Source: Candidatus Nitrosotenuis aquarius (GTDB lineage Archaea > Thermoproteota > Nitrososphaeria > Nitrososphaerales > Nitrosopumilaceae). Taken from it: a DNA stretch of 64,000 nt. A program made the translations under genes and the position numbers. The notes beneath the pieces were generated by a model, which was not told the origin of the DNA, ran no database searches, and worked only from the letters and a program-made list of their open reading frames with translations. Shown one piece after another: positions 33,262-38,187 of this stretch (its first letter is position 1; each line of letters begins with the position of its first letter). The DNA lies in contig NZ_CP024808.1 of assembly GCF_002787055.1 (NCBI RefSeq), positions 1,266,328-1,330,327 on the forward strand, read 5' to 3'.

Positions 33262-34833
33262 TTGATTGAAAACGAAAACACTTGGGCAAATGCAGTAAAA
33301 ACAGGCACCCAAGACGATTTCCACAAGAAATTCGATTCCGCACTAGAATCCCTAAAATCAGAATTTGGCAAGACCTATCCGTTAATCATAGGAGGAAAAG
33401 AAGCATACACAGAAAAAACATTTGATGTACGATCCCCATCCGACACCAGAATCATCCTAGCCAAGTTTCCACTGGCAACAAAAGAGCAGACAAACCAGGC
33501 AATCGAGTCAGCCAAGGACGCATTTTACAATTGGAGCTCCACACCATACCGGACCAGAGCCAAAGTTTTCCGCGAAGTAGCATTACAGTTTTCTCAAGAA
33601 AAATTCACGCTGGCTGCCATAGTGAGCCTAGAAAACGGCAAAAACAGGCTCGAGGCAATGGGAGAAATGGATGAAACAATTGATTTTCTGCGATTTTATG
33701 CAGACCAGCTAGAGGCAAACCAAGGATTTGTCAAACCAACAAAAAACGCAAACCCAAACGAAAAAACCCAATCCATCCTAAAACCATACGGCGTCTGGGG
33801 AATAATTTCTCCGTTTAACTTTCCATCAGCAATAGCAATTGGAATGAGCAGCGGTGCACTAATCACAGGAAATTCCGTGGTACTAAAGCCAGCAAGCGAC
33901 ACGCCACTATCAGCATTCCAATTCGTAAATGCAATTTACAAAAAAATCACACCAGGCGCAATCAACTTTGTAACAGGACAGGGCAGCATAGTGGGCCAAG
34001 CCATAGTTGAAAACCCAAACGTCTCTGGTATAGCATTTACCGGTTCCAAAGAAGTTGGGCTGTCAGGATTTAGGACGTTTACACGAGAATCCCCAAAGCC
34101 ATTCATCTCAGAGATGGGCGGCAAAAACCCAGTCATAGTGACCGAATCAGCAGATCTGGAAAAAGCAACCGACGGGGTTTTGCGTGCAGCATTTGGCTAT
34201 GGTGGACAAAAGTGCAGCGCCTGCTCGCGGGTATATGTCCAAAAACAAATTGCGCCAAAATTCCTAGAAAAACTCGTAACAAAAACACAAAACCTCAAGA
34301 TCGGACTTCCCTGGGAAAAAGATACGTACTTGGGTCCAATAATTAATGATTCAGCCAAAAAAAAATTCGAGTCGGCAGTGGAGCTTGCAAAAAAGGACGG
34401 CAAGATAATTTTCGGCGGTGAAATCCTAAAGGACGGACTGTACCAAAACGGCTACTATGTCAAGCCTACAATAGTTACCAATTTACCAAAAGACCACAAG
34501 CTAGTAAAAGAAGAATTATTCTTGCCGTTTTTGTGCGTCCAGGAATTTGAAAAATTCGATGATGCAATAAGGGAGGCAAACGATTCCGAATATGGCCTCA
34601 CTGCAGGCATATTTTCGCAATCCAAGTCAGAAATTGACGCATTTTTCTCTAAAATCGAGGCTGGAGTAACATATGCAAATCGAGCCCAATCTGCAACAAC
34701 TGGCGCAATGGTGCAGTCACAGCCCTTTGTTGGATGGAAAAATTCCGGAATTTCTGGCAAAGGAGCAGGCGGCGCATATTACCTGACCCAGTTCCTCCGA
34801 GAGCAAACGCAAACAATTTGCAATGAGCAGTAA
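33262..34833 (+). CDS. Aldehyde dehydrogenase, P5C/glutamate-semialdehyde dehydrogenase-like
   Basis: 523 residues from TTG 33262. The catalytic Cys lies in GYGGQKCSACSRVYV, the sequence form of 1-pyrroline-5-carboxylate dehydrogenase; SEMGGKNPVIV precedes it as the conserved Glu-Met-Gly-Gly block. The Rossmann signature is GVWGIISPFNFPSAI. It oxidises glutamate semialdehyde to glutamate with NAD, in proline or arginine breakdown. Function rests on the Cys-site form; other long-chain semialdehydes are possible. Its stop overlaps the next gene by 11 bp, so they are translationally linked. Confidence 0.86.
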   Translation: MIENENTWANAVKTGTQDDFHKKFDSALESLKSEFGKTYPLIIGGKEAYTEKTFDVRSPSDTRIILAKFPLATKEQTNQAIESAKDAFYNWSSTPYRTRAKVFREVALQFSQEKFTLAAIVSLENGKNRLEAMGEMDETIDFLRFYADQLEANQGFVKPTKNANPNEKTQSILKPYGVWGIISPFNFPSAIAIGMSSGALITGNSVVLKPASDTPLSAFQFVNAIYKKITPGAINFVTGQGSIVGQAIVENPNVSGIAFTGSKEVGLSGFRTFTRESPKPFISEMGGKNPVIVTESADLEKATDGVLRAAFGYGGQKCSACSRVYVQKQIAPKFLEKLVTKTQNLKIGLPWEKDTYLGPIINDSAKKKFESAVELAKKDGKIIFGGEILKDGLYQNGYYVKPTIVTNLPKDHKLVKEELFLPFLCVQEFEKFDDAIREANDSEYGLTAGIFSQSKSEIDAFFSKIEAGVTYANRAQSATTGAMVQSQPFVGWKNSGISGKGAGGAYYLTQFLREQTQTICNEQ

Positions 34834-35845
34834 TATAGCTAAAACACCACAGGTCATCGTCTTTTTTGGCTTTGTTGTACTAGCTGTTGTCATTATAGCT
34901 GTATCGATTGGATTTTTGCAACCAATGAACAAGTCTGATACCAGAGAAAAAATCCTCATCTCAAATCTGAAAAATGAAAAAATTCCTGCAAAAATCTCAG
35001 AAATTCCTCCAAACAAATCATATCATTTTGCATACCCATCATCCTATGACATTAGCAAATCTGAAAATTCGCACCAAATGTTCATCTTGATTAGAGTGCC
35101 AAAAGAGCTAGGAGGAGACAAAGATGACATTTCATCATTTAGAGCATATTCAGCTGTTGCATTGGAATCGGGCTGTTTGATGAAACACTGGCCTCATGAA
35201 GGACGAAACACAGTAATCCAAGAACCATGCCATAATGGCGTATATCGAGTCCAAGATGGACTGCTGATAGGAATTGAACTACTCTACAAACATCTCTTCA
35301 ATGCCTTGCCATATCTAGAGCTGTCTGCCGACGAACAAGGATACATTTACGCAGAACCACCAATCTGGGAGCTTGACAAAAACGGAGTTGTTGGAATCGG
35401 AAGGAACGTATCTGAAGAGCTTTACAGAAAAACTGCAATTGCAGAACTAAATGATTACCTTACAAATTCTGGCAAGCCGCTTGACATTCCATTGCAGCTA
35501 AAGGATGGTTCAATTCTAACACCTGGAAAGACAAACCATGACTTTGTGTACAAAAACACGCGTGACATTAGGATCTATCATCATTTGGAAATATTATACT
35601 GTAATTGCAGTGCGCCAACTGACACCAGTATGCTAGATGAAGCGTGGCTACTAGATGATGAATTATTGTACGTTGAGGGATTTTATCCCCCAAGCGGCGA
35701 GTATCAGTATTATTCTGTAACATTCTTCAGAGATGGATATCAAATCAAGTTCCTATCATCAGGAAGAAGCTTTGAGGAATTGCTAACACATGTCTTGGAT
35801 AATTTCTATGAAAACAAGAATTATTCCATGCTCAAAAAAGCCTGA
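34823..35845 (+). CDS. Membrane-anchored Rieske-fold protein without a 2Fe-2S site
   Basis: 340 residues with one N-terminal membrane helix (about 10-31) and an outside domain. AYSAVALESGCLMK aligns with the Rieske AVCTHLGC loop, and IQEPCHNGVYRVQDG with CPCHGS. The Cys and His ligands of loop 1 are Ala113 and Glu115, the first Cys of loop 2 is Glu134; only His137 remains. The two disulfide cysteines (Cys118 and Cys136) are kept. The remainder of the chain is beta-rich with a GEYQYYSVTFF C-terminus. It is coupled to the P5C-dehydrogenase-like gene by an 11-bp overlap. Rieske identity is inferred from spacing. Confidence 0.55.
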   Translation: MSSNIAKTPQVIVFFGFVVLAVVIIAVSIGFLQPMNKSDTREKILISNLKNEKIPAKISEIPPNKSYHFAYPSSYDISKSENSHQMFILIRVPKELGGDKDDISSFRAYSAVALESGCLMKHWPHEGRNTVIQEPCHNGVYRVQDGLLIGIELLYKHLFNALPYLELSADEQGYIYAEPPIWELDKNGVVGIGRNVSEELYRKTAIAELNDYLTNSGKPLDIPLQLKDGSILTPGKTNHDFVYKNTRDIRIYHHLEILYCNCSAPTDTSMLDEAWLLDDELLYVEGFYPPSGEYQYYSVTFFRDGYQIKFLSSGRSFEELLTHVLDNFYENKNYSMLKKA

Positions 35846-35926: not shown

Positions 35927-35974
35927 ATGTCTGCGCAATACTTAATTGCAAATTCTAGTCGTGGTGCATATTGA
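35927..35974 (+). other. 15-codon upstream ORF overlapping the propeller start
   Basis: ATG 35927 to TGA 35974 encodes MSAQYLIANSSRGAY. Its TGA overlaps the TTG start (35971) of the propeller gene as TTGA. It may couple translation or be chance. The surrounding 125-bp interval contains no other gene. Confidence 0.2.
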
Positions 35975-38187
35975 ATACTAAAATCATTATAGCTGTTGTC
36001 GCAGCAATCTCTGTAGCTGGATCATTTGGAATATTTCTGACTCTGATGCCTACCAATACACCACCTTCTACTCCATATGTTGTTTCGCCAAACGCATTTG
36101 ATGACACACCACTAGTATCTCTTGAGGGATCGCAGGAGCTCAAAAAATTCTCTTCATATGAAGAGCTCAAAAAATACCTTCAAACAACACAAGCTCAAGA
36201 TCAATACTATCGAGACTATGGTGGCCCAATAACTCTTGATAGAACAGTTTTCCCAACTCCTTTCTCTAGAACCGATGCACAATGGAATATGGCTGAAGAA
36301 GCAGCACCGGCATCAGCTCCAGTACCAACGCCTACCAATGGAGGAGTTACCGATTCTTCCAAACCGGGATATTCCACTACAAACGTCCAAGTCAAAAATG
36401 TAGACGAGCCAGACTTTCTAAAAAACGATGACAAGTACGTATACATCGTAACAGGCGACAAACTGACAATAATAGAGGCCTATCCAGCAGAGACAGCAAA
36501 AATCATACTAAAAGTTGGAATCGACATTCCACAAGGCCAGTCAATACAAAATATTTTCCTAAACGGAGACAGGCTGGTCATCTTCTACCAAGACTATCAG
36601 GAAACCGACTACATCCCACAATACAATTTTGCACCATCAAAAATCTACACAAACCTAACCCACATTGTAATAATGGATGTCTCTAGCAAGGAATCACCAA
36701 AGATAATCAAAGACTATTCCGTCAACGGCTATTACCACAATGCCAGAATGATCGGAAATCTTGTCTATCTGATATCAATAGCAGAGGTTAATCATTTCCA
36801 GCCAATCATTCCACTAATAAGAGAAGACGCAAGGACCATCATTTCTCCAGACGTTTTCTATTTTGACAATCCAGAATCCTACCATAATTTCAACACGGTA
36901 ACTGCAATCGATGTTTTTGCAGACAAGATAAAATCAGAGACTTTCATGATGGGCGGCGCAGGAACAATCTACATGTCTGAAAATAACCTGTACATTACAT
37001 ACCAAAAGAACCTGCCATATCGATATTACCAAGTCCACGAAAAGACCAGATTCTTCGAAGCTATAGTGCCAGTGTTGCCTACTAACATCCAGACACAAAT
37101 CAAACAGATAACAAACGATTCCACATTAAGCGAATCCGAAAAATGGAGCAAAGTATCCGATCTGCTCCAAAACACCTACAATTCCATGTCACAGTCGGAA
37201 AAATCAAAATTATTTGAGAAAATCCAGTCAGCAATCAACGATTACGAGCTGAAAATACAACAGGAAACACTAAAGACAGTAATCCACAAAATAGGCCTAA
37301 ACTCTGGCGAGCTAAAATATCTAGCAAAGGGCGAGGTCCCTGGAAGGCTGCTCAACCAGTTCTCAATGGACGAGTCGGAAAACAGATTCCGAATAGCAAC
37401 CACATCGGAATTTTATTCAAATCGCTCGTATCTGCACAATAATGTCTACGTTTTAGATGAAAATCTGATGCGCGTAGGGGCACTAGAACAAATAGCAAAG
37501 GACGAGTCCATTTATTCCGCAAGATTCATGGGCGACCGACTATATCTGGTGACATTTCAAAGAATGGACCCGTTCTTTGTAATTGATCTGTCCACAGACA
37601 CGCCAAAAGTACTGGGCGAGCTCAAAATTCCAGGATTTTCGCAGTATCTCCACCCATATGACGAAAATCATGTCATTGGTATAGGCAGGGACACCAAGGA
37701 AAACCAGTGGGGCGGAGTCCAGACAGAAGGAGTAAAGCTGGCGCTATTTGATGTAACAGATGTGTCCAAACCATCCGCAGTAGACGTGGAAATAATAGGA
37801 AAACAAGGAACAGATTCCGAAGTGCTAAACGACCACAAGGCAATGCTCTTTGACAAGCAAAAGGGAATTTTGTCAATACCAATTTCCAATTACAACTATA
37901 ACATAGAGCCGTACTACAAGGATGGCAGATATGTCGAGCCAACAACATGGAGAGGATTCTATGTGTATGATGTCAAGGATTCCGGCTTTGATCTAAAGGG
38001 AACTATAATGCATTCAAACGGCACCGGCTACGAGTATTATGGGTACGGAAGCAGGTCATTTTACATTGATGACACACTGTACACTGTAAGCTCTAATCTT
38101 ATGAAGATGAATGCGATATCTGATCTGCACGAGGTAAACCAGATAAAATTCAGGGATGAGGCAAAGCTAGTACGCTATATCGACTAA
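35971..38187 (+). CDS. Secreted beta-propeller-domain protein
   Basis: 738 residues from TTG 35971 with an N-terminal signal anchor (TKIIIAVVAAISVAGSFGIF). After a Pro/Thr-rich region (about 80-130) comes the block TNVQVKNVDEPDFLKNDDKY with VYIVTGDKLTII, the start signature of the secreted beta-propeller family PF09826. Repeated propeller-like strands continue to the end (LYLVTFQRMDPFFVIDLS, HPYDENHVIGIGRDTKE). Long helical insert at about 370-440. Function of the family is unknown; it may be a surface sensor or binder. Confidence 0.85.
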   Translation: MNTKIIIAVVAAISVAGSFGIFLTLMPTNTPPSTPYVVSPNAFDDTPLVSLEGSQELKKFSSYEELKKYLQTTQAQDQYYRDYGGPITLDRTVFPTPFSRTDAQWNMAEEAAPASAPVPTPTNGGVTDSSKPGYSTTNVQVKNVDEPDFLKNDDKYVYIVTGDKLTIIEAYPAETAKIILKVGIDIPQGQSIQNIFLNGDRLVIFYQDYQETDYIPQYNFAPSKIYTNLTHIVIMDVSSKESPKIIKDYSVNGYYHNARMIGNLVYLISIAEVNHFQPIIPLIREDARTIISPDVFYFDNPESYHNFNTVTAIDVFADKIKSETFMMGGAGTIYMSENNLYITYQKNLPYRYYQVHEKTRFFEAIVPVLPTNIQTQIKQITNDSTLSESEKWSKVSDLLQNTYNSMSQSEKSKLFEKIQSAINDYELKIQQETLKTVIHKIGLNSGELKYLAKGEVPGRLLNQFSMDESENRFRIATTSEFYSNRSYLHNNVYVLDENLMRVGALEQIAKDESIYSARFMGDRLYLVTFQRMDPFFVIDLSTDTPKVLGELKIPGFSQYLHPYDENHVIGIGRDTKENQWGGVQTEGVKLALFDVTDVSKPSAVDVEIIGKQGTDSEVLNDHKAMLFDKQKGILSIPISNYNYNIEPYYKDGRYVEPTTWRGFYVYDVKDSGFDLKGTIMHSNGTGYEYYGYGSRSFYIDDTLYTVSSNLMKMNAISDLHEVNQIKFRDEAKLVRYID

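Follow-up and report, generated by a model that had tools for sequence, protein, structure and literature searches.

What becomes of a Rieske protein that has lost the ligands of its iron-sulfur cluster? The question is raised by a gene in the genome of Candidatus Nitrosotenuis aquarius (1.697 Mb, a single contig), located in a 64,000-nucleotide stretch of contig NZ_CP024808.1 (positions 1,266,328 to 1,330,327; hereafter the window, in which the coordinates of the gene and its neighbours are counted). From its sequence and those of its relatives, we consider it probable that the 340-residue product has a Rieske fold, redox-dead and stapled by its disulfide, that serves at the cell surface in binding or as a structural module, and that it belongs to an old paralogue family of ammonia-oxidizing archaea. 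The Rieske domain is among the most conserved of electron-transfer domains, and a clade-wide family that lacks the ligands and the twin-arginine (Tat) export signal and keeps the disulfide would show cleanly how a redox domain can become a scaffold. The gene and its parts are as follows.

34823-35845, + strand: gene for a predicted cofactor-free Rieske-like protein of 340 residues (open reading frame, ORF; homology to Rieske proteins; family membership)
34847-34912, + strand: N-terminal membrane anchor, residues 9-30, without a twin-arginine motif (Kyte-Doolittle 3.3; no RRxF; modelled helix 9-30)
34985-35407, + strand: Rieske-like domain, residues ~55-195 (phmmer 51-147; hhalign against true Rieske proteins, reaching residue 196)
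35159-35176, + strand: former ligand loop 1, A113-L-E115-S-G-C118 (Rieske C-x-H-x-x-C), with the disulfide Cys kept and the ligands gone
35222-35233, + strand: former ligand loop 2, E134-P-C136-H137 (Rieske C-P-C-H), with the Cys ligand gone and the disulfide Cys and the His kept
35414-35806, + strand: C-terminal domain, residues 198-328, PsbP-like by structure search (AlphaFold2 model; Foldseek; homologous in most family members)

Kinship with Rieske proteins and the missing ligands

Searches of the 340-residue protein against Pfam and NCBIfam gave no match, with PF00355 absent even at E <= 10, and ordinary annotation would therefore miss it; nor is PF00355 among the 25 Pfam families listed for 39 members of the family described below, and profile annotation misses such proteins. 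Its kinship emerged from a phmmer comparison with PDB chains, in which AYSAVALESGCLMKHW...EPCHNGVY aligned to AYSAVCTHLGCIVSQW...CPCHGGVY of the Thermus thermophilus Rieske proteins 3fou and 1nyk (E = 2.6e-5 and 3.1e-5), reproducing by computation an alignment that a first-pass annotation of the bare sequence had drawn by eye. The ligand positions Cys, His, Cys and His (here C1, H1, C3 and H2) are occupied by Ala113, Glu115, Glu134 and His137, and the disulfide positions by Cys118 and Cys136. Three of the four ligands are replaced, His137 being the fourth, and the residue numbers given by that annotation for both the replaced ligands and the cysteine pair proved right; the coordinates and strand of the reading frame were likewise confirmed. 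Homology across the Rieske domain places the protein in the Rieske superfamily; the C-x-H...C-x-x-H ligands of a functional Rieske protein are absent, with A, E, E and H in their place.

To define the family, 400 genomes of the class were searched with eight such proteins and the matches were aligned; 34 true Rieske proteins served for comparison. The ligand-free family comprises 47 distinct proteins from at least 39 genomes of ammonia-oxidizing archaea in three families of the order. When 300 genomes of the phylum were searched, nothing outside the order matched at E <= 1e-40. Compared profile to profile with true archaeal Rieske proteins, the family aligned over 172 columns with a probability of 100% (E = 1.4e-44). 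The residue pattern that the first-pass annotation had suggested looking for in related genomes is shown by all 47 proteins and is therefore far from chance, and no family member carries the four ligands at other positions, the case which that annotation had named as refuting. Both cysteines of the inter-loop disulfide, a bond predicted from sequence, are invariant (47/47), and neither C1 nor C3 holds Cys in any member (0/47). Residues at C1 are D (18), S (18), G (6) and A (5), and those at C3 are D (29), N (11), E (6) and Q (1). At H1 the residues are mixed and 3 of the 47 members have His, and H2 varies most widely (H13, W8, I7, S6, Q5, A4, K2, G1, N1). Along the tree, no change was counted at the first disulfide Cys, compared with 12 at H2, 8 at C3 and 7 at C1.

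In a maximum-likelihood tree, which is unrooted, the ligand-free proteins form one side of a single branch (support 100/99), and their split from the true Rieske proteins persists without the six motif columns (support 97). Since cluster ligands occur in bacterial, archaeal and eukaryotic Rieske proteins alike, they were lost here rather than gained. Among the 25 closest pairs, dN/dS of the Rieske domain is 0.02-0.31, for the most part 0.02-0.24, and usually lower than in the C-terminal domain; the Rieske domain is therefore under purifying selection without its cofactor ligands. The order-wide spread suggests that the family originated early in ammonia-oxidizing archaea, and spread by transfer between lineages is possible; within the 17 genomes of the genus, only one has the gene. 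The same genome encodes an ordinary Rieske protein elsewhere (G000:C1:1541044, CLHLWC...CPCH), adjoined by cytochrome b and a cupredoxin, so that the 340-residue protein is a second, different paralogue; its own gene lies not beside cytochrome b but between genes for an aldehyde dehydrogenase and a beta-propeller protein.

Export, domain plan and structure models

The Tat pathway serves proteins that receive their cofactor before they are exported (PMC12219900). Every true Rieske protein whose N-terminus is complete (32 of 32) carries a twin-arginine motif (RRxF), whereas no family member has one, and the Tat signal typical of true Rieske proteins in these archaea is thus missing throughout the family; the ordinary Rieske protein of the source genome gives a Tat-signal match near the cut-off. 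For a cofactor-free protein one would expect just this combination, neither Tat signal nor ligands. Most ligand-free proteins instead begin with a strong hydrophobic helix, which is not apparent in the stretch examined of some long fused ORFs, and two further members are incomplete. The claim of a membrane-anchored protein is borne out by a single N-terminal segment at about residues 9-30. Six members (L087, L091, L093, L094, L104, L109) have an extra cysteine pair right after the anchor (~LCxExGGxRxGDxC), perhaps a second disulfide, that the 340-residue protein does not share.

An AlphaFold2 model built from 12 sequences had a mean pLDDT of 65.8 and a good C-terminal domain; a single-sequence model was discarded (pLDDT 39.5). 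By Foldseek, the C-terminal domain resembles PsbP (1v2b_B; E 7.6e-4, probability 1.00), at a sequence identity of ~10%. The likeness to PsbP and CyanoP is one of predicted fold and concerns only part of the protein, and the source organism has no photosystem; by sequence, PsbP had no match among the Pfam families listed for the 39 members. Matches of this part to malic enzyme were dismissed as chance (E ~0.2). Lower in the Foldseek list stands the Rieske subunit of a mycobacterial bc1 complex (9gy6_A; E 5.9e-3, probability 0.99, TM 0.24), a match obtained with a model whose loops are of low confidence. Matches to Rieske oxygenases (TM 0.17, rmsd ~20 A) were not taken as evidence of an oxygenase, and a viral structure library yielded nothing useful. 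A Rieske fold for the 340-residue protein is thus supported by sequence homology and, weakly, by the structure model.

The C-terminal domain is common to most family members, although two end ~20 residues past the Rieske domain, and there are fusions to a CAP domain (one member, E 5.5e-6) and to DUF6438 (one member, E 3e-35). Within the C-terminal domain, a CxC motif (YCNCS, residues 259-263, 35597-35611) is shared by Nitrosotalea members (YCNCT, FCNCT) and not by the G033 member.

Cofactor-free module or another role

What was computed is homology, ligand loss, invariant cysteines, a single tree split, purifying selection, loss of the Tat signal and a two-domain plan, and the redox-dead Rieske fold that the first-pass annotation had offered as one option is supported by nearly all of these. 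It is further favoured by the fusions to CAP and DUF6438 domains, by the position of the ordinary Rieske gene next to cytochrome b and a cupredoxin, and by the neighbouring genes: those of exported type (hydrophobic N-terminus) make up 84 of the 147 genes at most two positions from family members versus 18 of 66 in the window (p = 6e-5). On this reading, the protein would be exported by the general pathway, not by Tat, and anchored by its one N-terminal helix, with the Rieske fold displayed outside the membrane and followed in most members by the PsbP-like domain. The Cys118-Cys136 disulfide would form and replace the cluster as the staple of the two former cluster loops, the former cluster site would hold no metal in most members, and the role would be binding or structural at the cell surface, not electron transfer. 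A more far-reaching version, which we regard as possible but hold tentatively, is that ammonia-oxidizing archaea, in a single early event, converted an electron-transfer domain into a stapled surface module free of cofactor, with one branch (L095, L097, L115) perhaps carrying a single-metal site of two His and two carboxylates.

Several results weigh against a cofactor-free surface module. C3, the first cysteine of CPCH, is confined to D, E, N or Q, a restriction that a wholly idle site would not need. The loop region 113-160 is of low confidence in the AlphaFold2 model (pLDDT ~31-39), so that the geometry of the disulfide is not visible there, and whole-protein superpositions score low (Foldseek TM ~0.2) because the domain arrangement is unsettled in the model. 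Finally, the background used for the exported-type neighbours, the genes of one other genome region, is rough.

The best surviving alternative, in our view rather unlikely, is that the former cluster site binds a single metal ion (copper, zinc or iron) through carboxylates and the remaining His, in a metal-binding or metal-sensing surface protein. All 13 members with His at H2 have Asp or Glu at C3, the 340-residue protein has E115, E134 and H137, and ammonia-oxidizing archaea depend heavily on copper. Three Nitrosotalea-type proteins (L095 5001-5951, L097 4710-5606, L115 5001-5882) keep both His ligands, with Asp and Glu replacing the cysteines (DIHxGC...EPCH, giving D, H, E, H), a possible single-metal site. 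However, H2 is not His in 34 of the 47 members (W, I, S, Q, A, K and others), and the pairing of D at C1 with H at H2, with three to four independent pairs, is inseparable from shared ancestry. The copper or other metal site proposed in the first-pass annotation is accordingly rejected for the family as a whole because of the variable H2 position, and may yet hold for subsets.

That the cytochrome b-Rieske complex has in this protein an accessory or assembly partner, docking at the site of the Rieske head as a decoy or regulator, is in our view quite unlikely. Such a role would suit a fold shared by descent with the true Rieske protein, on the same side of the membrane, and the strong constraint on the domain. 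The loci examined show no recurrent cytochrome b-like neighbour family, though not all neighbours were scanned with Pfam; moreover, the family is patchy (one genome in the genus) whereas the complex is general, and the CAP and DUF6438 fusions are ill-suited to a respiratory subunit. That the two cysteines are an extracellular thiol-disulfide exchange or redox-sensing pair is very improbable: their invariance would fit, but they are 18 residues apart, form no CxxC, and occupy the places where Rieske proteins normally have their structural disulfide. Least probable is a decaying, functionless pseudogene, which the missing ligands, the occurrence in a single genome of the genus and the long branch of the 340-residue protein might suggest, but which is contradicted by an intact ORF, invariant cysteines and a conserved two-domain plan, and is refuted for the family by the low dN/dS values found throughout it.

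Seen as a stapled module, the family can be set beside known Rieske systems. With the Rieske subunit of bc1 and b6f complexes (1nyk/3fou, PF00355; CLHLWC...CPCH in ammonia-oxidizing archaea) it has in common a domain recognizable by sequence, N-terminal anchoring and the two disulfide cysteines, and it shares conserved glycines and a GxGR end with the Rieske proteins of ammonia-oxidizing archaea. Unlike that subunit, it lacks the Cys ligands and mostly the His ligands, has mostly lost the Gly-Pro of the third loop (kept in 8 of 47 members versus 34 of 34 true Rieske proteins), has no Tat signal, has gained an extra C-terminal domain and, in the source genome, is not encoded beside cytochrome b. 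In bc1-type Rieske proteins the disulfide links the two ligand loops, its role being variable, and the arsenite oxidase subunit AioB of Rhizobium NT-26 has a cluster without the disulfide (PMC3758308). AioB is likewise a Rieske fold minus one loop feature, and its mirror image is found here, since the family keeps the disulfide and loses the cluster ligands; the family thereby lets one ask directly whether the disulfide can hold the two loops by itself.

NirD, the Rieske-type small subunit of nitrite reductase, is cytoplasmic. As described, it is part of a nitrite-assimilation enzyme whereas the family is membrane-anchored and exterior, and the two are alike in having substituted ligands, a Cys and a His in NirD of Bacillus bataviensis (PMC3475470). 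The Rieske fold and Rieske-type domains with substituted ligands are therefore already known (PMC3475470). In the open-licence literature we found no Rieske protein described as lacking its cofactor, whether from these archaea or from elsewhere, and the family is apparently undescribed so far; ammonia-oxidizing archaea thus gain a widespread exterior protein family whose role is yet to be assigned.

An insertion behind a dehydrogenase gene and arrays of exported proteins

The surroundings of the gene comprise the following features.

33262-34833, + strand: conserved aldehyde dehydrogenase gene that hosts the insertion site (PF00171, E 2e-135)
34833-35844, + strand: 1,012-bp insertion that separates the dehydrogenase stop codon from the former intergenic region (blastn versus the empty sites L130 and L133)
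35971-38187, + strand: beta-propeller gene (PF09826), ancestral downstream neighbour of the dehydrogenase gene (Pfam; congener gene order)

The overlap with the dehydrogenase gene reported in the first-pass annotation is real, 11 bp being shared (34823-34833), but the significance suggested for it finds no support. In four congeners (L130, L133, L137, L141) the beta-propeller gene directly follows the dehydrogenase gene, leaving an empty site; versus L133, the extra segment begins at the dehydrogenase stop codon. Its G+C content is 38.8%, compared with 44.0% and 41.4% in the two neighbours. The dehydrogenase gene is present in 15 of the 17 congeners, including all 11 of >=90% completeness and <=5% contamination. 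Because distant congeners also lack the Rieske-like gene at this place, the more economical account is that this lineage acquired it. An operon with the dehydrogenase is rejected on account of the empty sites; on this history the overlap is a by-product of the insertion and no hint of function, and the dehydrogenase is probably functionally unrelated to the Rieske-like protein. Translation probably starts at the ATG at 34823, within the end of the dehydrogenase gene and just upstream of the start of the insertion, and the inserted segment contains no transposase gene.

In Nitrosotalea, family members are found inside tandem arrays of exported-type genes (L032 4162-10498; also L031, L089 and L076). 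The array products begin with MKTL or MKSL, their first codons are near-identical (ATGAAAACTCTA) and the gaps between genes are a few bases, giving each the look of a cassette-like series of genes for surface proteins. A recurring motif of neighbouring exported proteins, ~PLKQFKSGI..DVxC...PACV..T...L..RGW, which had no Pfam match in the proteins examined, occurs at L031 6402-7475, L032 6750-9480, L035 7281-9110 and L089 1261-2454.
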